In this document: one piece after another, positions 3,464 to 60,762 of the stretch | Position numbering within the stretch: position 1 is the stretch's first letter | How the letters are laid out: every line of letters starts with the position of its first letter | Origin: Nitrosomonas sp. Nm34 | GTDB lineage: Bacteria > Pseudomonadota > Gammaproteobacteria > Burkholderiales > Nitrosomonadaceae | Reading direction: 5' to 3' | Assembly (NCBI RefSeq): GCF_900113925.1 | Contig: NZ_FORD01000014.1 | Location: 1-64,000 of the forward strand | DNA length: 64,000 bases | Notes under the pieces: generated by a model | The model's input: only the letters and a program-made list of their open reading frames with translations | Databases searched by the model: none | What the model was told of the DNA's origin: nothing | Program-made: the position numbers and the translations under genes

Positions 3464-3570
3464 TAATTCTATTTCCAAATCAGAAATGACACGAAGGCGA
3501 GCCGCAGACAGTATCAATAATACGGTAAGGTGAAGCCGACAAAGTCAGTTTAGATTTAGAAATGGAATTA
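3464..3570 (-). repeat. MITE-A copy 2
   Basis: Same element as 631-735, reversed: left end ATTCTATTTCCAAATCAGAA, core CGAAGGCGAGCCGCAGAC and GGTAAGGTGAAGCCGAC, right end TAGATTTAGAAATGGAAT. It is flanked by TA on both sides (GTCTA / TTAGAC), a clean TA duplication. Confidence 0.85.
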
Positions 3571-3611
3571 GACACCAATGGGCATCAGTGAACAGATTTA
3601 TTCCTATCCGT

Positions 3612-6540: not shown

Positions 6541-6789
6541 AAAATTGAGGCGACTAGTTCTTCCGTATTTGTGGCTAGCTGGCGTTCTGCTTTGGGTTGG
6601 TGTTGCGTGTTTGGGTGCTTTTGGGCCTTCATTGGACAGCCCTTCATGCTTTGGATTGTGCAGGCTTTTGAGCTCCCATTTAAGACCCTGCCGAATATTC
6701 ATACTGACTACTTACTAGAATTAGTATTGGCTATGCTAGGGTTTAGCGGGGTGAGGATGGTAGAGAAGATCAAGGGCGTTGCTAAGTAA
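6541..6789 (+). pseudogene. Holin of 3TM type, N-terminally truncated
   Basis: The C-terminal 82 codons of a longer composite frame read ..VASWRSALGW, a hydrophobic run (CCVFGCFWAFIGQPFMLWIV), then LLELVLAMLGFSGVRMVEKI and KGVAK before TAA 6789. The W-R-S start, the central membrane segment and the GxxGxRxxEKxKG tail match the gene-transfer-agent / 3TM phage holin family (recognised pattern). The normal start is missing, replaced by the IS-like end and hisN DNA. It is phage debris, probably not expressed. Confidence 0.6.
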
Positions 6790-6841
6790 TTGACTGAAAG
6801 GTGTAGGTATAGGTTGAGGTGGTTAATAATAAATGATGCTT

Positions 6842-6874
6842 ATTAGACTAGTGAAGTTTTTGCACTAGTCTAAT
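6842..6874. terminator. 12-bp perfect hairpin after holin relic
   Basis: ATTAGACTAGTG (6842-6853) pairs with CACTAGTCTAAT (6863-6874) around a 9-base loop with a T run. It is preceded by AATAATAAATGATGCTTA, which closely resembles the lead-in to the hairpin at 8966-8993. It could end transcription from the holin side and, read the other way, the operon 6992-8226. Confidence 0.6.
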
Positions 6875-6991
6875 TATTCTTTATTACCAAATTAATAACA
6901 GAACCATAATGACTGAATAAGGGATCTTATCTTGTGTCACTGTCTCATGATAATTAGATGAATATTATTCCTAAAAAATATTCTATTACTA

Positions 6992-7357
6992 TTAAGTAGG
7001 CATTAACAAAAGATAATCTTGAGTAGGTTCCTCAATTATATTAGTCTCATAAATTCGCTTTGATACTTTTTTTTCATGTATTTCTAGCTGAGTATATCCT
7101 GATTTTGAAAAAGAAATCCTGCTTTTCGAAAAGGATTGGTTCTCAAATGCATTGACTAAATATAGCCAGTCAATATCAGATTTATTGTTTATCGGAGTTT
7201 GGTTTAGATTATTAATTATATTGTCAGCAAGAAATCCAATTTTTTTACATTCCGATTCAATATTCTGAAAATTCTTTTCTCTTTCTCTATGATCTTTAAT
7301 AGTTTTGTAAATAGATAATGCCGCGGCCAAAGTTAATACTATAGTTAAATCAGTCAT
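6992..7357 (-). CDS. Unknown protein with N-terminal membrane anchor, 121 aa (operon gene 3)
   Basis: ATG 7357 has a strong GGGGGAG ribosome-binding site inside the end of the gene before it; the two frames overlap by 8 bases. Residues 3-18 (DLTIVLTLAAALSIYK) form a short hydrophobic anchor, followed by a charged helix (KTIKDHREREKNFQNIESE) and a soluble domain ending EEPTQDYLLLMPT. It is very AT-rich. The family is not recognised. The overlap with the two genes before it says the three act together. The hydrophobic N-terminus followed by charged residues predicts a membrane-tethered cytoplasmic protein. Confidence 0.6.
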   Translation of the reverse strand: MTDLTIVLTLAAALSIYKTIKDHREREKNFQNIESECKKIGFLADNIINNLNQTPINNKSDIDWLYLVNAFENQSFSKSRISFSKSGYTQLEIHEKKVSKRIYETNIIEEPTQDYLLLMPT

Positions 7358-7655
7358 TGCTAGTTCTCCCCCTTTTTAGTTCACTCACATGGTTATCAAA
7401 CGTAGCTAAAGCTGTAGAAATTTTCCCGAGTGCAAAATTATTATCTTTTATTAATTTACTTAACTTATTTTCATTAAATAGATTGGCAATCATTTTAATA
7501 AGATTAGAACATAGTATATAAAAAATAATACCGACAACAACATAAAATGCTAATTCGTTGTCTATTATAGTCTTTAATATTTTATAAATCGTTGCGAGAG
7601 CTATATTGAGTTGCTCTAAATCGACATCAGCGAATTTTTCTAAATTATTTGCCAC
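7350..7655 (-). CDS. Unknown small membrane protein, 101 aa (operon gene 2)
   Basis: GTG start at 7655, overlapping the previous gene by 11 bases; ends at TGA 7350-7352 inside the start of the next. One strong membrane segment lies at ~34-52 (LAFYVVVGIIFYILCSNLI), flanked by helical charged regions (LEQLNIALATIYKILKTII before, NENKLSKLIKDNNFALGKI after). The layout resembles small holin-like or toxin-like membrane proteins, but no motif supports a function. The GTG start follows from the overlap; an in-frame ATG is not available near the start. Confidence 0.55.
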   Translation of the reverse strand: MANNLEKFADVDLEQLNIALATIYKILKTIIDNELAFYVVVGIIFYILCSNLIKMIANLFNENKLSKLIKDNNFALGKISTALATFDNHVSELKRGRTSND

Positions 7656-8226
7656 TAAATTTTATCCGTAAAGTTTCAGCTTTACTTTTTGCGATTTTCA
7701 ATTCTTCTATTAAATCATCAATAGTATCTTCGTAAAACTCGCATAAAAAAGATTGCTCGTCTACAGTGTTAATTTTTAGGATATAAGGGTATAAATTAGT
7801 TACTATTTCTTTTCTTCTAATATCAAAAATTGGACGAACATCAGTAGTGATTTGAAAATTTTCTATTCTGCTATATCTGTCTTTAATTTTTTCTATTTTT
7901 TGATCTAGAAAGTAGCTTTCAAGTTGAGAGATAGAATGATTTAGTTTTCGCCATCCATTTCTAGCTTCTGGACTGCTTTCAGATAGACGATCTATAGTAT
8001 CGTTTAGATCTGAAATAGCATCTTCATAATTTCGTGCATCAGTCACGAAACTTATTAATCTCAATAGTGCCTTTATTTCTCCAGTTTCATCTTTAGTTAT
8101 AAATCTCTTTAATTTTAATGTTCTATCTAATGCATTGTTGTTGCTCTCTGCATATATGGAAATTATATCGGTATAAGCAGAATCATCAATTAAGTGTATG
8201 AGTTCTAAATCAGATATTAAATCCAT
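7645..8226 (-). CDS. Unknown cytoplasmic helical protein, 193 aa (operon gene 1)
   Basis: First gene of an overlapping three-gene operon. I take ATG 8226 (MDLISDLELIHLID); a GTG ten codons upstream at 8256 is possible, and neither has a clear ribosome-binding site. The protein is soluble, rich in Asp, Glu, Ile, Lys and Ser, and looks all-helical (RNYEDAISDLNDTIDRLSES, EQSFLCEFYEDTIDDLIEEL). There is one Cys and no recognisable catalytic motif. Its position between a holin relic and a frameshifted umuD, beside a dead integrase, marks it as mobile-element cargo. Function is unknown. Confidence 0.6.
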   Translation of the reverse strand: MDLISDLELIHLIDDSAYTDIISIYAESNNNALDRTLKLKRFITKDETGEIKALLRLISFVTDARNYEDAISDLNDTIDRLSESSPEARNGWRKLNHSISQLESYFLDQKIEKIKDRYSRIENFQITTDVRPIFDIRRKEIVTNLYPYILKINTVDEQSFLCEFYEDTIDDLIEELKIAKSKAETLRIKFSGK

Positions 8227-8438
8227 ATATTTATAATGAGTTGCATTAGAGCCCACACAAAAAGGAGTTGTTAATAAGAAATTTCTTATCCTTAAAAGCG
8301 GCGTGAATTATATCAAACATTATCTAGATTGAATAATCGACTTAAAGAAGGGTAGAACGTTTGCACATTTCATCGTATTGTTATTCGTCGAATAGGTGCT
8401 TTATACTGCGCTATTCATCAAGCGCTTTAGAAATTGTT

Positions 8439-8907
8439 ATGATAATTAATACTCCAGTTGAACCAAGTAGCGAATCGATCCTGCCTGTTCTGGAGCGAGC
8501 AAAGCTTAACCCTGTCACTTGTTATTGCTGTTTTGCAGTATCGAATTCCCGCTGGGTTTCCATCTCCTGCAGAGGGATATTCTGAGAAAGGGCTGGATAT
8601 CAGTGATTATCTGGTACGCAATAAAGCCTCTACCTATCTCTTCCGAGTGATGGGCGATTCTATGATCGGTGCTCGCATTCATGATGGTGATATGCTGGTG
8701 GTTGATCGCTCAATCAAACCTAAACACGGGCATATCGTTCTGGCAGTAATTAACAATGAATATACTGTAAAGCGATTGTATTCCTGCAGTGGTGTGATTG
8801 AGCTTCATGCTGCTAATCCGACTTATCCTGCTATTCGATTCCGTAAAAATGATGAATTGCAAGTGTGGGGAGTTGTAGTTGGTGCAGTAGCACGCTTTAT
8901 AGTGTAA
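8439..8907 (+). pseudogene. umuD: UmuD-like S24 peptidase with N-terminal frameshift
   Basis: From ATG 8439 one frame reads MIINTPVEPSSESILPVLE, typical of a UmuD start. The conserved body is in the next frame from about 8530: IPAGFPSPAEGYSEKGLD (Ala-Gly self-cleavage site), VMGDSMIGARIHDGDMLVVD with the catalytic Ser, and NNEYTVKRL with the catalytic Lys. A shift of one frame between about 8490 and 8530 is therefore needed to join them. The alternative 149-aa frame from TTG 8458 has an unusual N-terminus. UmuD is the accessory subunit of DNA polymerase V; no umuC follows. It could also be a mobile-element SOS repressor relic. Confidence 0.65.
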
Positions 8908-8965
8908 TTATGTCTGATATTTACTAGCTTCGCATTCGCAGCGGTTGGTAATAAATAATGCTTAC

Positions 8966-8993
8966 TGAACTAGCACAATTTAGTGCTAGTTCA
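8966..8993. terminator. 11-bp perfect hairpin after umuD relic
   Basis: TGAACTAGCAC (8966-8976) and GTGCTAGTTCA (8983-8993) enclose AATTTA. It lies between the convergent umuD relic and the 143-aa gene. The preceding AATAAATAATGCTTAC is shared with the hairpin at 6842-6874. Confidence 0.6.
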
Positions 8994-9003
8994 CATAAAG
9001 AAA

Positions 9004-9435
9004 TTACTCTGACAAATCCTCCAGGTAATTTTCTGCATCCTTTTTGGTTTTGAATATAAGAGGTGAATTACTGTTATTTTTAAAATTATTGACAGCACAA
9101 TCAAAAAGCCACTCATAAGCCTTTTCCTTAGTGTCAAATACACTTATTTTGTCACAAAAATTTCCTTGATCCCTCCATTCACAACCCTCATACCGCAACA
9201 CTTTTTCTAATTCAGGCTTTGAGCCCGTATGCTTAAAGATATTATCAGTAACAAGCTCAGCTTCTGATTTTTCTTCAAAGAGATCTCCGGAAACTCTAAA
9301 CCAGATTGCTTCATCTACATAGTTTTTCCTTCGAACACCTGAAGGAGTTGTAATTTTTTCTGCAAAGGATTCAATCAAATCAATATAATCTTCTTCAATG
9401 ATAAAGCCATCTTCTATAATGTACACCGGGTCCAT
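9004..9435 (-). CDS. Hypothetical acidic protein, 143 aa
   Basis: ATG 9435 follows GGGAGAAG, a very good ribosome-binding site. The protein is acidic with several aromatic residues (VYIIEDGFIIEEDYIDLIES, LRYEGCEWRDQGNFCDKISV, AYEWLFDCAVNNF) and three or four cysteines; it has no signal peptide or membrane helix. I do not recognise the family. It lies between the umuD relic and the integrase relic, so it is probably cargo of the integrative element. The end KTKKDAENYLEDLSE matches a helical tail. Coding is well supported by start signal and length; function is not. Confidence 0.6.
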   Translation of the reverse strand: MDPVYIIEDGFIIEEDYIDLIESFAEKITTPSGVRRKNYVDEAIWFRVSGDLFEEKSEAELVTDNIFKHTGSKPELEKVLRYEGCEWRDQGNFCDKISVFDTKEKAYEWLFDCAVNNFKNNSNSPLIFKTKKDAENYLEDLSE

Positions 9436-9635
9436 TTTACTTCTCCCTTTAGTTACCTGATTCCGTCAGGCCGATCTGATCCATTTTTTATAAGATGATT
9501 ATCTGGCAAGAGACACTTATACAGCTCTGCCGACATTAAGAGCTGCAGTATTCGGAACTTTGAAAATATATTTTACTTTACCAATCTTAATGGTTACTGA
9601 GCAATTTGCAAAAAATGCACATTGCTTATTGCACA
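9436..9635. other. Spacer upstream of the 143-aa gene
   Basis: About 200 bases without an open frame of note. It includes the promoter side of the 143-aa gene and a short TTGCA-rich stretch (9601-9630) beyond the end of the integrase. No att duplicate of tRNA-Leu was found here. Confidence 0.4.
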
Positions 9636-10623
9636 TTAAATCCTCTTGGCAATATCCTCAATACTTTCTCTGTAGTAAATTTGAAGCTGGTCTCATATCA
9701 CGATGACCAGATATCCTCGCAAGCGTTAAAATATCCACCTTCTTGGCTAGTCTAGTGATAGCTTCTGCCCTGGTGTCATGAAAATGCAGGTCTTCAATCA
9801 TTGCCCTGCCTTTAGCCTTCCTGAGCAACGCATCAATCTGGCTTGTACGCAGATTAAACACGGATTCCGCAGATTCATTCACGGATTTTAATTGCTCGAT
9901 AATCCTGATCGCTTCACTAGACAATGGCACATTTCGAGCAAAACTATTCTTTGTCATTGGTAAGTGCGCGACTCTCTTTTCAATATCAACATAAGTCCAA
10001 GTAAGAGAAGCAATTTCACCTGTGCGCATGGCTGTCTCAATCGCAAATATTAAAGCCGCGCCAACTCTAGCTGATATAGTTTCTGGCTCCTCTGTATACT
10101 CATAACCAAGCGCAAACAGTAGACGGTCTATTTCGTCTTGCTCAATACGTCGCTCTCTGTGCGGCGGTTCTTTTGGCCGTTTAACTTCCTTGATAGGGTT
10201 TTCCAAAAGCCACTTCCATTCGTTCTTTGCTATATTTAAAGCATGCGTAATCAGGTTCCAATCACGGAGCACGGTACCAGCTTTCACGGATTGCAACCTT
10301 CTATCCCGCCATGCTGCAAAATGCGTCTAGTTTAGTTCGCTTAATTTAATCTTTGAGATTTCATCTTCAGACAGCTTGCTAAAACGCTTAAGCTCAAATG
10401 ATCCACTGCGCTTAGTTGGTGATACTTGTTTGCCGTATCTATCCATGAGATCGCCAAACGTTTTATCAGGTATAGTATTAAACTTTCCAGATAAAATTTC
10501 TTTCTCTGTTTCAGCAATCCACATATTGGCTTCGGCTTTGGTGCGGAAGGTTCTGGACTTCCTGATACCCATCTTGAAGACCGCAGCTTCATAGCCGTTA
10601 TTTTTCTTCCTGATAGTACCCAT
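9636..10623 (-). pseudogene. Tyrosine recombinase (phage-type integrase), two lesions
   Basis: The N-terminal part starts at ATG 10623 (MGTIRKKNNGYEAAVFKMG) and carries the arm-binding and SAM-like segments. It meets an in-frame amber stop at 10327-10329 and continues in the same frame with THFAAWRDRRLQSVKAGT. The catalytic domain keeps AMRTGEI (Arg), HFHDTRAEAITRLA (His-x-x-Arg) and ISGHRD (His). After RDMR an extra base near 9698 shifts the frame; the other frame restores LQIYYRESIEDIAKRI with the catalytic Tyr and a stop at 9636-9638. Read through both lesions the protein would be ~328 aa, normal for the family. It lies with its 5' end toward tRNA-Leu, as in elements that integrate into a tRNA 3' end. 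Confidence 0.85.
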
Positions 10624-10631
10624 AGATTCAT

Positions 10632-10675
10632 CCGTGAATTTAACCGTAATTTATCCGTGAATACTACCGGAAATT
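10632..10675. repeat. Four phased CCGTGAATT-type direct repeats upstream of integrase
   Basis: CCGTGAATT (10632), CCGTAATTT (10644), CCGTGAATA (10655) and CCGGAAATT (10667) recur every 11-12 bases between the integrase start and the tRNA-Leu gene. Spacing near one helical turn is what arm-type integrase sites or an operator would show. The identity is inferred. Confidence 0.5.
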
Positions 10676-10793
10676 TGTTAAATCTTGTGAATCTTTGTTG
10701 AAACTAGAGAGAAGGAAAAACTATTAAGAGGCTCTTAAAACAATGCTTTTTGGGGATTTTTTGACTTTTGGTGATTGCTGTCAAAATAGTCGG

Positions 10794-10883
10794 TGGTGCC
10801 CGGAGCCGGAATCGAACCGGCATGGACGTATAAGGTCCGAGGGATTTTAAGTCCCTTGTGTCTACCAATTTCACCATCCGGGC
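10794..10883 (-). tRNA. tRNA-Leu(TAA)
   Basis: The reverse strand gives GCCCGGATG at the 5' end, D arm AAATTGGTAGA, anticodon loop CTTAAAA (anticodon TAA), a long variable arm, T loop TTCGATT and a matching TCCGGGC acceptor, with CCA encoded at 10794-10796. The class II variable arm fits Leu. It stands 171 bases from the integrase start. Confidence 0.95.
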
Positions 10884-11514
10884 AATCAAAATTAGAATAT
10901 TATTTTTTCTTTACTATCAATAGATTGGTATTAAAGGTAATATTGCTAAGAATTTGTTATTATACTGCGAAATAACGTTCTAGAGAATCTATTATTGTGA
11001 ACAGATTGTGTGAATCTAATTAAAATGAATCCGTTCAAATCAATTTTTATTTGATGGGGTGGTGGTGAGTCCTCGTCGCGAATTAAACCAAGATGCGTCC
11101 AGCATACCCTTACTTTACCTATTCTTTAATTGGCAAAAATTGCTGTCTAATAAAAACTGAAAGTTGGAGCTATTTCTGTGTCTATATGATTTAGTCTAAA
11201 AAATCTTCTTTGCTAATATAAAAATGGATCAGTCCAAATAAGCTAAAGCCAGCAGATCATTTTAGCTTCGTGGCAATAAAATTTACTGTTTTCAGATTTG
11301 CTTTATCTGTACATAGTCAATTTATATCGGCGATAAAGTTATTAACTTTAGAAGGTATTTGGCAGAAATTAAAATAGATCTTGCTTTTACTGAAGCTATA
11401 TTTCACCTCATGGTGAATGAGGTGTTGGTAGCAAAGAATGGTAGAATCTCTAATTCAGGTAACTAATTGATAGTTAAGCCTGAGCGATTCGAGTGCAAGG
11501 ATAGTATACGCGTG
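10884..11514. other. Spacer between intact and decayed tRNA-Leu
   Basis: About 630 AT-rich bases with no supported gene. It probably is residual DNA of the element or of an older insertion that displaced the leucine tRNA from its neighbours. Confidence 0.45.
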
Positions 11515-11560
11515 TTTGAAGTCCCGTGTGTCTACCAATTTTCCTATACAGCAATCGAAA
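11515..11560 (-). pseudogene. Decayed tRNA-Leu 5' half
   Basis: On the plus strand TTTGAAGTCCC..TGTGTCTACCAATTT..GCAATCGAAA copies the 5' half and leader of the intact tRNA-Leu (about 37 of 46 positions agree). The acceptor stem and anticodon (TTCAAAC region) are broken. It lies 14 bases from tRNA-Cys, where a Gly-Cys-Leu cluster would place the native Leu gene. Confidence 0.7.
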
Positions 11561-11573
11561 CAGGCTGAATTTT

Positions 11574-11647
11574 TGGAGGCGGGGGTCGGAATCGAACCGG
11601 CGTAGACGGCTTTGCAGGCCGCTGCATAACCACTCTGCCACCCCGCC
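11574..11647 (-). tRNA. tRNA-Cys(GCA)
   Basis: The reverse strand reads GGCGGGG acceptor, D arm, anticodon loop CTGCAAA (GCA), T loop TTCGATT, matching CCCCGCC, discriminator T and encoded CCA. 74 bases in total. It is second in the Gly-Cys-(Leu) cluster. Confidence 0.95.
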
Positions 11648-11753
11648 AATTATTTTTTTAAGATCAGAATGTGGTCTGTATCGTAACACCACGATGAATA
11701 ATATGATATGGGTTTTTTATCTATTTGTTAAAAAATCCAATTTATCTCGATAT

Positions 11754-11828
11754 TGGAGCGGGAAACGAGGCTCGAACTCGCGACCCCAACCTTGGCAAGG
11801 TTGTGCTCTACCACTGAGCTATTCCCGC
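11754..11828 (-). tRNA. tRNA-Gly(GCC)
   Basis: The reverse strand gives GCGGGAATAGCTCAGTGG, an anticodon loop with GCC (TTGCCAA), T loop TTCGAGC, acceptor TTCCCGC, discriminator T and encoded CCA. It is first in the cluster and is followed by tRNA-Cys. Confidence 0.95.
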
Positions 11829-11956
11829 AATTTTGAGTTTTACGTACTCAACAACACAATTCAGAAATAAAGAGAGGATTATAAAGATGCTGTTTATTTT
11901 GTCAAGAAACGCATGGATCCAGTCTTCCTTAAATTGTTATTTTTCGGTTTGATCTA

Positions 11957-16029: not shown

Positions 16030-16130
16030 TTGAATATCTCCTAAAAATGCAAATCATGTGTTAACACAAGAATGAGTTCAGGATCTTTAACTTTTTATGA
16101 ACTACTGATGCCGTCGGTTACCGAGTACCT

Positions 16131-16240
16131 TATTCCATTTTTAAATCAAAACGGATTTTTTCGGCTTCACCTTGCCGTATTATTGTATTGATACTGTCTA
16201 TGCTCGTTTTCGCGTCATTTTTGATTTAGAAATGGAATTA
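16131..16240 (+). repeat. MITE-A copy 3
   Basis: TTCCATTTTTAAATCAAAA..GGCTTCACCTTGCCGTATTA..CGCGTCATTTTTGATTTAG and AAATGGAATTA. It carries TA on both sides. One arm has a small insertion (TGTATTGATACTGTCTATGC) and the GCGGCTCGCC core is altered to TGCTCG. It lies between two genes that both run on the minus strand. Confidence 0.85.
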
Positions 16241-17936: not shown

Positions 17937-18911
17937 TTAACGGAGGATCCCTCGCCGCAGCATTAGCCACATGACCTTGAATCCCCACAGGATCGGGTAG
18001 CGTCGCAGCATGGGTGTAACTTCAACCCGGACACCGCTATGGCGTTCTATTTTCCACGCAGCATAGTTGAGGTAGTCATGAAATGTCAGTGTAGCTTTAC
18101 TCAAGCGTAATATCGAGAGGATTCTTCCCTGCCAGCGCCTGAGACGCCAGCACAAGCGGGCTCGTCGGTTATCTGATGGCGTAGCCTGACAGTAGTAATA
18201 AGGCCCATCGGTTTGAACAGTCAGCAGGCCATTTAAAGCGGGCAGAGCGGCAGCCGTCAAACGTTCATAATGATTGAGACTAAGCTGAGCGAGGTGACGT
18301 GCTCGCGTGGCCCGTTCGGCGCGTAGTTCTGCGGCGTAAGTCAACATCAGGCCCTGAGTCCAGATTTCTTCAGTATTTAATGCGTGTGCTTCAAGTGCTA
18401 ACAGACTCGATTTCAGGAATTTAACGACTGCTTGCGCCATAGCCACATCAACGCGTTGACGGATGAAATCATCACGCGCATAGAGTAATCGTGCTGGTTG
18501 AGCAAAGCGTGCCCAGAGATAGGGATGAAACCAGTAACGGTTGCCGTATTCGAAATCGGCGGTTGAGAAGACTGCATACTTGGCACGGAAGATTTTTTCC
18601 TGCTGGGTGACTTCCAAATAGAATACATTGGGAGGAAGCCAGGTATTCAGATAAGCGAGATAACGCTTAGCGTAGGCATTGCGGTAATCATTGACCAGTA
18701 CGTGGAAATCGGCGATGCCTTCAGACAGATTGCTGGTGTGTAGACAGGATCCATATAGGATGATGGCATCCAGCGAGTCAGCAAAGCGCTGTTTGATTGC
18801 CTCAGTCAGATACTCGAAATCAGGGGAAACTGTTTGGGCATTCTGTGAAGCGATAATTTCTACCAATGGTGCGGGTGGTTGCTCAGTGTGGAGTGATTTG
18901 TTCTTTTTCAT
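17937..18911 (-). CDS. Nucleotidyltransferase-like protein of unknown function, 324 aa
   Basis: ATG 18911 lies 12 bases after the previous stop (18924). Residues ~45-75 (LDAIILYGSC..IADFHVLV) look like the G-S..D-x-D region of the polymerase-beta nucleotidyltransferase fold, but the second acidic residue is not clear, so catalysis is doubtful. The C-terminal part has many Arg and aromatic residues and helices (RATRARHLAQLSLNHYERL). I do not know a named homologue. Its tight coupling to a diacylglycerol-kinase-like gene and a CDP-alcohol transferase gene argues for a lipid-synthesis role, perhaps transferring or sensing a nucleotide-activated head group. Confidence 0.6.
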   Translation of the reverse strand: MKKNKSLHTEQPPAPLVEIIASQNAQTVSPDFEYLTEAIKQRFADSLDAIILYGSCLHTSNLSEGIADFHVLVNDYRNAYAKRYLAYLNTWLPPNVFYLEVTQQEKIFRAKYAVFSTADFEYGNRYWFHPYLWARFAQPARLLYARDDFIRQRVDVAMAQAVVKFLKSSLLALEAHALNTEEIWTQGLMLTYAAELRAERATRARHLAQLSLNHYERLTAAALPALNGLLTVQTDGPYYYCQATPSDNRRARLCWRLRRWQGRILSILRLSKATLTFHDYLNYAAWKIERHSGVRVEVTPMLRRYPILWGFKVMWLMLRRGILR

Positions 18912-31482: not shown

Positions 31483-31588
31483 TATTCCATTTCCAAATCA
31501 AACATGCTGCGAGGTCGAGCCACAGACAATATCAATCATACGACAAGGTAAGCGGACAAAGTTGTTTTTGATTTTAAAAATGGAATTA
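31483..31588 (-). repeat. MITE-A copy 4, immediately upstream of murJ
   Basis: TATTCCATTTCCAAATCAAA..GAGGTCGAGCCACAGACAA..TTTTTGATTTTAAAAATGGAATTA. TA lies at both ends. Relative to murJ it begins 30 bases upstream of the TTG start, so it occupies the 5' leader and perhaps the promoter. Confidence 0.85.
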
Positions 31589-31816: not shown

Positions 31817-31983
31817 TCTGATAAATGCTCTGGTTATGTCATGCAGCCAGTCTGTCAGTTTTGAGGCTGGTGTGACAATGGCATATCATTTTTACTTGCG
31901 TTCATTCTAGTTGGGAGTAAGTTTTAGAAATATCCAAAACTAATGAATCAATGTCCCAATAATATAAAACCCTGACACACCTC

Positions 31984-32087
31984 ATTCCATTGCTAAATCA
32001 AAAATGGTTTTGTCGGCTTCACCTTGCCGTATGATGGATACTGTTTGCGGCTCGCCTTCGCGTCACGCTTGATTTAGAAATGGGATT
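31984..32087 (+). repeat. MITE-A copy 5
   Basis: ATTCCATTGCTAAATCAAAA..GGCTTCACCTTGCCGTATGA..GCGGCTCGCCTTCGCGTCA..TTGATTTAGAAATGGGAT. The two ends carry one change each from copy 1. It is 100 bases from the tRNA gene at 32188. Confidence 0.85.
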
Positions 32088-32187
32088 AGATGAGCGATGC
32101 TGGACATAATTTAAACAGTGGCGTCCGTGGTATTTGCGATATCTAATGTCTATAGTAGCCGCTTCGCCCTTGTTAATTGGTAAGAGG

Positions 32188-40237: not shown

Positions 40238-40280
40238 ATACCCCCAGACATACATTTCAGTTTCTGGGGGTATTTTTTTT
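40238..40280 (+). terminator. Rho-independent terminator after comEA-like gene
   Basis: ATACCCCCAGA at 40238-40248 pairs with TCTGGGGGTAT and is followed by a run of T to 40280. It is one of the clearest terminators in the window. Confidence 0.9.
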
Positions 40281-40285
40281 GCTTA

Positions 40286-40390
40286 TTTCACTTCCAAATC
40301 AAAAATGATGCGAAGGCGAGCCGCAGGCAATATGAATATTACGGCAGGGTGAAGCCAACCAAGTCAGGTTTGATTTAGAAATGGAATTAT
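40286..40390 (-). repeat. MITE-A copy 6, upstream of cysM
   Basis: CACTTCCAAATCAAAAATGA..GAAGGCGAGCCGCAGGCAA..GTTTGATTTAGAAATGGAAT. The left end is damaged. It fills the space between the comEA terminator and cysM, so the cysM promoter must lie within it or in the 70 bases after it. Confidence 0.85.
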
Positions 40391-43220: not shown

Positions 43221-43299
43221 GGTGTATCCGAATTATTATTAATTATTGATAGTGATGTTAATAAAGCAAGCGTAAAGCAGGGTACTCCAGATGGTGTAG

Positions 43300-43410
43300 T
43301 TCCATTTTAAATCAAAACTGACTTGGTCGGCTTTATTGGTCGGCTTTACTTTGCCGTGTGATTGATACCGCCTGCGGCTCGCCTTCGTGTCATTTTTGAT
43401 TTAGAAATGA
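43300..43410 (+). repeat. MITE-A copy 7
   Basis: GTTCCATTTTAAATCAAAAC..GTCGGCTTTACTTTGCCGTG..GCGGCTCGCCTTCGTGTCA..TTGATTTAGAAATGAAA. The GTCGGCTTTA segment is doubled in tandem. The right end has lost its GGAAT, so this copy should be immobile. Confidence 0.8.
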
Positions 43411-43589
43411 AAAAATGAAATACCTTGCTTTGCACTTGCTTTTTAATTAGGAATTAATTTTAAGGTGGAAAGTTTATCCCAGTTATACCCGGTTGCTTAT
43501 TTTGACTTTATACATTAAGTACAGCGATAATCCATGCAAATTTATTTATGAAATTCTTCCATCTTAAAATAATTAACAAGGAGTAGAAA

Positions 43590-45538: not shown

Positions 45539-46382
45539 TCGATACCAGAACGATGAAGTCAATCGGAAAAAAATGGCATGGAGAAACCAAGAGATTCTAA
45601 GGTTGATTGAAAAAAAGCTTGCTTGGCTCTCGAATGCGAATTAAGCGCTGAAATAGAAGCCAGTTCATCAATAACTTTAAACTATTGAGGAAGGTACCCG
45701 CCAACCTTAATAAATTATAATAACGGATGCACCGGCAAGACCGATTAATAACGATTTGTCTCTATGTTCACAAGCATTATCAGGGATATTCTTTGCTTTA
45801 TAGCCAAAGAATGAGTAATTACGTGAATTGAAGTTTTAGCGATAAAGAAATCACTGCTCTCTACCTGTTCGGTGTGGTGGACAGGTAGAGAGCGATCAAG
45901 AGTATTTATGAGTATGCGGATCATCATTTACGCGCTTAGTCTGCACGACTTGCGAGTGATGTTGCTTGCTTATGTTCAGCGCTTTAATCGGTTAGCCGAT
46001 GTATTTGATCAGATTCAACCACAATTGCACAGTAATAACTGTATGATGATAAAGCTTATCAGCGGCCTGAAGCTGAAGAGGCCAGACAAGCTTGGAATAT
46101 GATCGTCTTGACATCGGTTAGAAACAAAAAAGAACCACCACACTATCCGGTATCACAGGATCAACGGTGCCTGCAGCGGTTCACTAGCAGGCTTTTGAGA
46201 AACTATCTGCATTGCCACTGCGATATTAAAAACAGGTTTAAAATGAAAAACAAATTCAAGATACTGATTTATCAGCTATAAACACCGTTTTTTGACTGTG
46301 TTTACTCATCATTATCATCGAGTACCTCTGCCTCCAGTACATTTTTCAACAACTTGCTACCACCCAATATAGTTTTTTTCTT
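45539..46382. other. Long spacer between holC and MITE-A copy 8
   Basis: About 840 bases without a gene I can support. Short frames (45351-45644, 45872-46102, 46099-46281) lack start signals and family character. The region separates holC from valS, which usually adjoin, so it looks like an insertion or decay product. Confidence 0.5.
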
Positions 46383-46495
46383 ATTCTATTTTAAATGAGA
46401 ACTAATTTTGTCGGCCTTTGTCGGCTTCACCTTGCCGTATGATTGATGCTGTCTGCGGCTCGCCTGCGCGCCATTTTTGATTGAGAAATAGAATG
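46383..46495 (+). repeat. MITE-A copy 8
   Basis: ATTCTATTTTAAATGAGAAC..GGCTTCACCTTGCCGTATGA..GCGGCTCGCCTGCGCGCCA..TTGATTGAGAAATAGAAT. The TCGGC(C)TT segment is doubled (TCGGCCTTTGTCGGCTTCAC). The outer ends changed together (ATTCTATT / AATAGAAT) and so still pair. Confidence 0.85.
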
Positions 46496-60520: not shown

Positions 60521-60568
60521 ATTACCTTAATCTCTTCGGGCACAATTCCCCGCTTCCGTGAGAGCATT

Positions 60569-60672
60569 ATTTCATTTCTAAATCAAATCTGGCCTTGTCG
60601 GCTTCACCTTGCCGTATTATTGATATTATCTGCGGCTCGCCTTCGCGTCATTTTTGATGTGGGAAAGGAATT
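60569..60672 (+). repeat. MITE-A copy 9, after argB
   Basis: TATTTCATTTCTAAATCAAA..GGCTTCACCTTGCCGTATTA..GCGGCTCGCCTTCGCGTCA..TTGATGTGGGAAAGGAATTA. Left and right ends have decayed differently, so this copy is old. Confidence 0.8.
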
Positions 60673-60762
60673 AGAAATAGCCCAGTAGGTGTCCTGTAGG
60701 AAAAAATGACGTAATATTCTTTTACTTGCAGCGGAGGTAGCCGTTTTTAGTTTGTCACAATT

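Follow-up and report, generated by a model that had tools for sequence, protein, structure and literature searches.

Organisation of the tRNA locus

The window, which is the whole 64-kb stretch of DNA that was analysed, belongs to the Nitrosomonas genome designated here as G000. On its minus strand, tRNA-Gly(GCC) and tRNA-Cys(GCA) are followed by a decayed 5' half of a tRNA-Leu gene, an intact tRNA-Leu(TAA) gene and an integrase relic, in that order. All three intact tRNA genes were called by ARAGORN on the minus strand, and the Rfam score was above the threshold for each. The features were as follows:

11878–11905, minus: putative promoter of the Gly-Cys operon, TTGACA-16-TATAAT (12/12 consensus matches; predicted from the consensus only)
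11754–11828, minus: tRNA-Gly(GCC) (ARAGORN, Rfam)
11574–11647, minus: tRNA-Cys(GCA) (ARAGORN, Rfam)
11515–11552, minus: stranded, decayed tRNA-Leu 5' half (nt 1–39), the putative left attachment site (comparison with G077)
11389–11514, minus: putative integrase-proximal arm of the element, with an inverted repeat at 11404–11424 (homologous place in G066, G078 and G010)
11011–11388, no strand assigned: interior of the element relic, integrase body missing (partial matches only, to G000 contigs C102 and C65)
10884–11010, minus: putative right end of the element, upstream of the rebuilt Leu, with a -10 box TATAAT at 10959–10964 (likeness to G066, HMM)
10794–10883, minus: intact tRNA-Leu(TAA), a putative chimera of an element 5' half and a host 3' half (ARAGORN, comparison with G077)
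9658–10623, minus: second tyrosine integrase relic, on the 3' side of Leu (ORFs, Pfam Phage_integrase)
6545–10793, no strand assigned: segment absent from G077 at the same place, containing the second integrase relic (alignment with G077)
60567–60676, 46380–46494, 43294–43420, 40277–40389, 31979–32090: dispersed repeat, places 1–5
31484–31586, 16128–16240, 3464–3571, 627–738: dispersed repeat, places 6–9

An earlier note on this DNA had listed the Gly and Cys genes, a broken Leu 5' half and an intact Leu(TAA) at 10794–10883, and ARAGORN, Rfam and the comparison with G077 bear this out. The remnant that it placed at 11515–11560 is real, but its true extent by comparison with G077 is 11515–11552, corresponding to Leu nt 1–39 minus one base; the extra 8 bases are spacer. 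The remnant and the window's intact Leu match at 25 of 27 core bases. The adjoining arm closes with the relic of an integrase start (ATA at 11397–11399; ATG in the relatives) and about 11 further bases of the gene. Within the interior of the element relic, 11170–11266 matches C102:7604–7698 of the same genome at 76%. The dispersed repeat, of about 105 bp, was found in both orientations and is 75–92% identical to copies in G077 and G097; it is possibly a MITE or REP-like element.

A 31-base Leu(TAA) pattern, allowing up to three mismatches, matched once in the whole G000 assembly. By this search, G000 holds no second Leu(TAA) gene and no intact cluster elsewhere of the kind that the earlier note had considered. 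A tRNA-Leu(UAA) gene is essential for decoding, and the single gene found in G000 would therefore be so. The earlier note had also suggested looking for a duplicate of the Leu 3' sequence at the far end of the element. Such a Leu(TAA) duplicate was sought in the 64-kb window (23 bases, up to three mismatches) and in G000, and was not found. At E ≤ 10, the other matches in the G000 assembly were to tRNA-Leu(CAA), to tRNA-Cys, to a Leu(CAA) 3' fragment (contig C114) and to a single stretch of 14 bases. The C114 fragment, with a P4-like integrase relic behind it, was considered as a displaced Leu(TAA) 3' half and rejected, being a 3' fragment of tRNA-Leu(CAA). It lies at C114:8284–9211 (L258 1297–2224) together with the integrase relic that follows, is 98% identical to the intact gene on C38, and is a vestige of a conventional island that used Leu(CAA).

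The uninterrupted site in a sister genome

In a tree built on rpoB from 78 genomes (an outgroup and 77 members of the genus; support below 0.8 at 9 of 75 inner nodes), G000 stood beside G077, in which the Gly-Cys-Leu operon is intact. Window positions 18521–11515 aligned with G077 at 96.9% identity over 7,010 bases, and the alignment halted at nt 39 of Leu, where the anticodon loop has its 3' border. The intact Leu of the window aligned apart from this 7-kb block and was identical to the G077 Leu at 90/90 bases. The variable arm shared by these two genes is unlike that of G066, of G097 and, by one base, of G078. Colinearity with G077 resumed only at window position 6544.

Over its 39 positions, the window's remnant has seven substituted bases and one that is lost, in surroundings that have diverged by about 3% from G077. 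Given this decay, and the identity of about 97% to operon-intact G077 in the flanking DNA, the split-Leu locus looks, from these sequences, older than the separation of G000 and G077. Either restoration of the operon in G077 or import of the segment into G000 must then be assumed.

The same junctions in three further genomes

In three other genomes (G010, G066 and G078), a Leu 5' half likewise stands behind tRNA-Cys, and similar DNA and the start of an integrase come next. The remnants terminate at nt 39–40, in the anticodon loop, in all four genomes. The DNA immediately past the remnant is alike, reading GTGTGTACC in the three relatives and decayed in the window. An intact tDNA lies downstream of the 5' fragment, on the same strand, in the window, G066 and G010. 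A two-copy layout in relatives lacking any integrase, which the earlier note had raised as evidence against its reading, was not encountered: at the stranded 5' half of each of the three relatives there is an integrase gene or the relic of one.

A whole element, of 5.5 kb and with an intact integrase gene, is present in G010 (Nitrosomonas sp. NMNS01). The order is Leu 5' half, 113 bp, a whole integrase ORF (334 aa) and an intact Leu whose start is 5,481 bp from that of the remnant; the contig stops 177 bp past Leu. In G066 the integrase is truncated to its N-terminal 152 aa, 67% identical to that of G010, and Leu begins 1,465 bp after the start of the remnant. G078 has an integrase pseudogene at the remnant and its Leu on a different contig with the same right end, so that the order of the parts is not visible. 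The integrase within the island is thus whole in G010, truncated in G066, a pseudogene in G078 and reduced to the start relic in the window. The relic arms of G000 and G078 are 75–80% alike, against 93% for the Gly-Cys spacer, and this sequence difference favours separate insertions in the two genomes.

None of the four cargo proteins of the G010 element had a Pfam match. PHROGs gave two families of unknown function among the four, one of them weak; the 503-aa cargo protein (L031 1389–2900) matches phrog_4756, of unknown function. No relative of the G010 integrase was found in the viral contig scan, and the genome collection returned only G010's own contig. Against phage records, the best match was 42% identical (15 of 1,030 records listed). 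No free form of the element was seen in the viral contigs, the genome collection or the phage records listed.

The 3' flank of the G078 Leu resembles those of the operon-intact genomes G097 (86%) and G077 (82%) from the first bases. Read by eye, this flank is a P4-like integrase relic, and such a relic also stands after tRNA-Leu(CAA) in G066, G078 and G097, 80–85% identical to that of G077. Because the same relic follows tRNA-Leu(CAA) as well, the resemblance is weak proof that the G078 flank is host DNA. The P4-like relic lies directly after tRNA-Leu(TAA) in G077 (L062 7056–8240), G097 and G078, and the related copies after tRNA-Leu(CAA) are at L255 (G066 C112), L259 (G078 C186) and L260 (G097 C170). 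One kind of P4-like element seems to use two Leu genes.

Two integrases at the locus

The integrase ORFs at 9658–10623 contain an in-frame TAG (10327–10329) and a frameshift that wrecks the Tyr motif. This relic is 33–34% identical to the G010 integrase, and it most likely represents another, conventional 3'-side insertion, distinct from the element that split Leu. No far end was found for this 3'-side element. By sequence comparison, all that is left of the responsible integrase is a few bases near 11397. Outside the same-site group, the nearest integrases in the genus are 43–47% identical and occupy the conventional position after tRNA-Arg(CCT), which ARAGORN confirmed for three of four; the fourth is cut by a contig end.

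The right end and a candidate promoter

The right end and Leu of the window are 84.8% identical to those of G066, and the 125 bp preceding the rebuilt Leu are 59–80% alike across the four genomes, with a TATAAT box inside. A search of 916 kb with an HMM built from the four right ends gave six additional loci at E < 1e-3. Each of these lies directly upstream of a non-operon Leu, and the first match elsewhere had E = 4.3; the label 'elsewhere' on a weaker match, L040, reflects only its end point, 62 bases short of Leu. After iteration, which may also collect similar promoters unrelated by descent, the HMM matched 27 (the four seeds among them) of 39 loci with Leu away from Cys (the out-of-genus G035 and G018, at a contig end, are included in the 39) and none of 40 loci with Leu beside Cys (G007 is counted twice). 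The zero of 40 is weak as a control, since Cys fills that place in the operon. The absence of off-target matches is the better control, and no other match was found at E < 0.01. At E < 1, the final HMM found the window's own right end only in 608 kb (the window and the rpoB loci), a weak test for tRNA promoters as the three loci scanned for tRNA genes had none.

The right-end motif was also considered as a general tRNA promoter. The 13-mer TTCAGGTTATAAT occurs three times in 12 genomes, always upstream of Leu; it is absent from the other five of eight genomes with a non-operon Leu, where the box varies, and from four operon genomes. A promoter scan returned nine promoter-like sites, the right-end candidate not among them. 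The right end has a conserved -10 and no consensus -35; the Gly-Cys operon has a perfect consensus promoter at 11905–11878. We infer that the TATAAT region of the right end probably acts as the promoter of the rebuilt Leu.

Proposed mechanism and alternative explanations

Conventional tRNA islands carry the 3' half of their target, and the intact gene stays in place. A host 5' half stranded in the operon with an intact gene downstream implies that the element carried either a 5' half or a complete gene. The 5' half is favoured because the window's Leu is the same as that of G077 and no Leu(TAA) 3' half was found elsewhere in G000. Very probably, then, a tyrosine-integrase element bearing a Leu 5' half entered the Leu gene of the operon, the gene was rebuilt, and a second, conventional element came to lie on its 3' side. 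The sequence comparisons directly show where the crossover fell, that an integrase belongs at the remnant, that the right end is shared and that the rebuilt gene is identical to its sister's.

Under this model, a small tyrosine-integrase element would integrate into tRNA-Leu(TAA) of the Gly-Cys-Leu operon, with the crossover in the anticodon loop and with an attachment site made of the Leu 5' half and upstream DNA instead of the usual 3' half. The sequences themselves show the host 5' half left in the operon as a fragment, with the integrase end of the element after it, and a complete Leu at the element's other end, behind the right end that the relatives share. With this polarity a far-end 3' duplicate is not expected, because the 5' half is itself the fragment that is left. 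The rebuilt Leu would consist of the element's 5' half joined to the host's 3' half; its 5' half is assigned to the element by its place at the right end, and its sequence is also identical to that of the host gene. The TATAAT region of the right end would drive the only Leu(TAA) gene found, and for this reason the right end could not be lost and would be kept while the remnant and the integrase decayed. The second, conventional element would have inserted at the 3' side of Leu.

The earlier note had an element entering the Leu gene, a working copy restored and the stranded part decaying, an outline that holds in the light of G077 and the relatives. It had allowed that the element brought the working copy. 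A complete Leu could have been brought as in tRNA-dependent lysogeny, in which the host gene is destroyed and complemented instead of rebuilt. The whole Leu copy does lie apart from the disrupted one, lysogeny of this type occurs in mycobacteriophages according to the available text of PMC10865867, and the right side of G010 is closed by the contig end 177 bp after Leu. Identity to the sister gene at all 90 bases, with only the upstream DNA foreign, and the lack of a displaced Leu(TAA) 3' half in G000, where the C114 candidate is a Leu(CAA) fragment, make this explanation improbable.

The note had also pointed to the integrase next to the intact Leu. The relic at 9658–10623 is directly downstream of that gene, in the usual place for the 3' type, and could be taken to have rebuilt Leu by ordinary 3'-half integration, with the 5' piece as decay of the original. 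Integration of this type leaves the intact gene in the operon and no 5' half beside Cys, however, and what follows the 5' half is the leader of a different integrase, whose counterpart stands at the remnant in each of the three relatives; nor was a Leu(TAA) 3' duplicate found in the window or G000. This integrase is thus probably not the agent, and we consider 3'-half integration very improbable. Two tandem copies on one strand would also be produced by duplication of tRNA-Leu without a mobile element, one copy then decaying, but in all four genomes the remnant breaks off sharply at one position, and this, the integrase ORFs or relics and the common right ends render such a duplication scarcely credible.

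Distribution in the genus

The Leu 5' pattern was matched in 77 of 85 genomes. Cys and Leu are less than 45 bp apart in 39 of these and not so in 38 (including G018, cut by a contig end). The two states are intermixed on the rpoB tree, where 72 tips required 13 Fitch changes or 16 irreversible gains, with five stateless tips and the outgroup dropped and G018, whose Leu is cut by the contig end, counted as displaced. On this tree, splitting of the operon was either gained repeatedly or reversed.

The element-like right end, with its -10 box, at 27 of 39 non-operon Leu loci suggests that promoters of the element became permanent. The related upstream region is present in 27 of 77 genomes, and the 5' remnant survives in four only. 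An element origin was considered for every non-operon Leu and is not shown, 12 of the 39 loci being without the right-end motif. In the other 34 stretches (33 genomes, 202–3,500 bp each), no Leu 5' fragment was found downstream of Cys. Some genomes (G035, G013) have conventional insertions at tRNA-Cys instead. In G035, which belongs to a different family in the order, Leu is immediately preceded by a duplicate of the Cys 3' end (L036 13187–13728), the result of a conventional insertion there. In G009 (L037) and G061 (L103), Leu 3' fragments start 1,398 bp and 3,244 bp past the Leu start, respectively; these are conventional uses of the same Leu gene at the same anticodon-loop site.

More tentatively, and with confidence somewhat short of an even chance, the element family may act as a one-way ratchet, in which each integration moves Leu(UAA) out of the operon and under the element's promoter. 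The split would be permanent because the right end of the decaying element cannot be lost. If true, this would explain why Leu lies outside the operon in about half of the Nitrosomonas genomes examined and why a related upstream region is found in 27 of 38, with later insertions or rearrangements carrying Leu further away. A single-copy tRNA gene here appears to depend on DNA that arrived with a mobile element. The genus offers an insertion-free site (G077), a whole element (G010) and stages of decay (G066, G078 and the window), and so permits a direct test of whether conserved tRNA operons are broken up by mobile elements whose promoters then stay in place.

Comparison with known systems

According to the available text on Islander, 159 of 3919 tDNA islands carry a 5' tDNA fragment (PMC4383910). 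Such islands share with the present locus an intact tRNA gene at one end, a crossover in the anticodon loop and, upstream on the same strand, a 5' fragment of that gene; the tyrosine integrase that they carry has its counterpart in the whole ORF between fragment and gene in G010. In all four genomes the fragment is terminal and stops at a known crossover subsite. Islander covers lengths of 2–200 kb, a filter that G010 (5,481 bp) passes, unlike the window's relic (about 670 bp) and that of G066 (1.5 kb). Unlike the Islander 5'-fragment islands, the insertions described here break up an operon of several tRNA genes, and relatives retain right ends like that of the element. Conventional 3'-half islands use the same target gene in G009 and G061 but carry the opposite half, and they have a 3' tDNA fragment at the far end, whereas the window has no Leu(TAA) 3' duplicate.

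The available part of one review (PMC8371274) describes pTN3-type archaeal integrases that use the tRNA 5' half, the tRNA then being expressed from the integrase promoter, and states that use of the 5' half is seldom met in bacteria and that, with very few exceptions, tRNA genes restored by bacterial islands retain the promoter they had before. The locus resembles the pTN3 type as described there in the use of the 5' half and in a rebuilt tRNA under an element promoter, which is reported for pTN3 and predicted here. The pTN3 integrases are suicidal, their gene being split on integration (PMC8371274, same part), whereas that of G010 is whole at 334 aa. As in the tRNA-dependent lysogeny of mycobacteriophages (PMC10865867, available text), a tRNA gene is disrupted and the carrier would depend on element DNA for that tRNA; there a complete phage tRNA complements, whereas here the gene appears to be rebuilt at the junction.

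No report of the Nitrosomonas element was found in the literature, among the matches listed. Although rare, islands with 5' tRNA fragments have been described, and the insertion event itself belongs to that kind. Its aftermath is unusual, and the noteworthy point is that one operon has been split repeatedly in the same genus.
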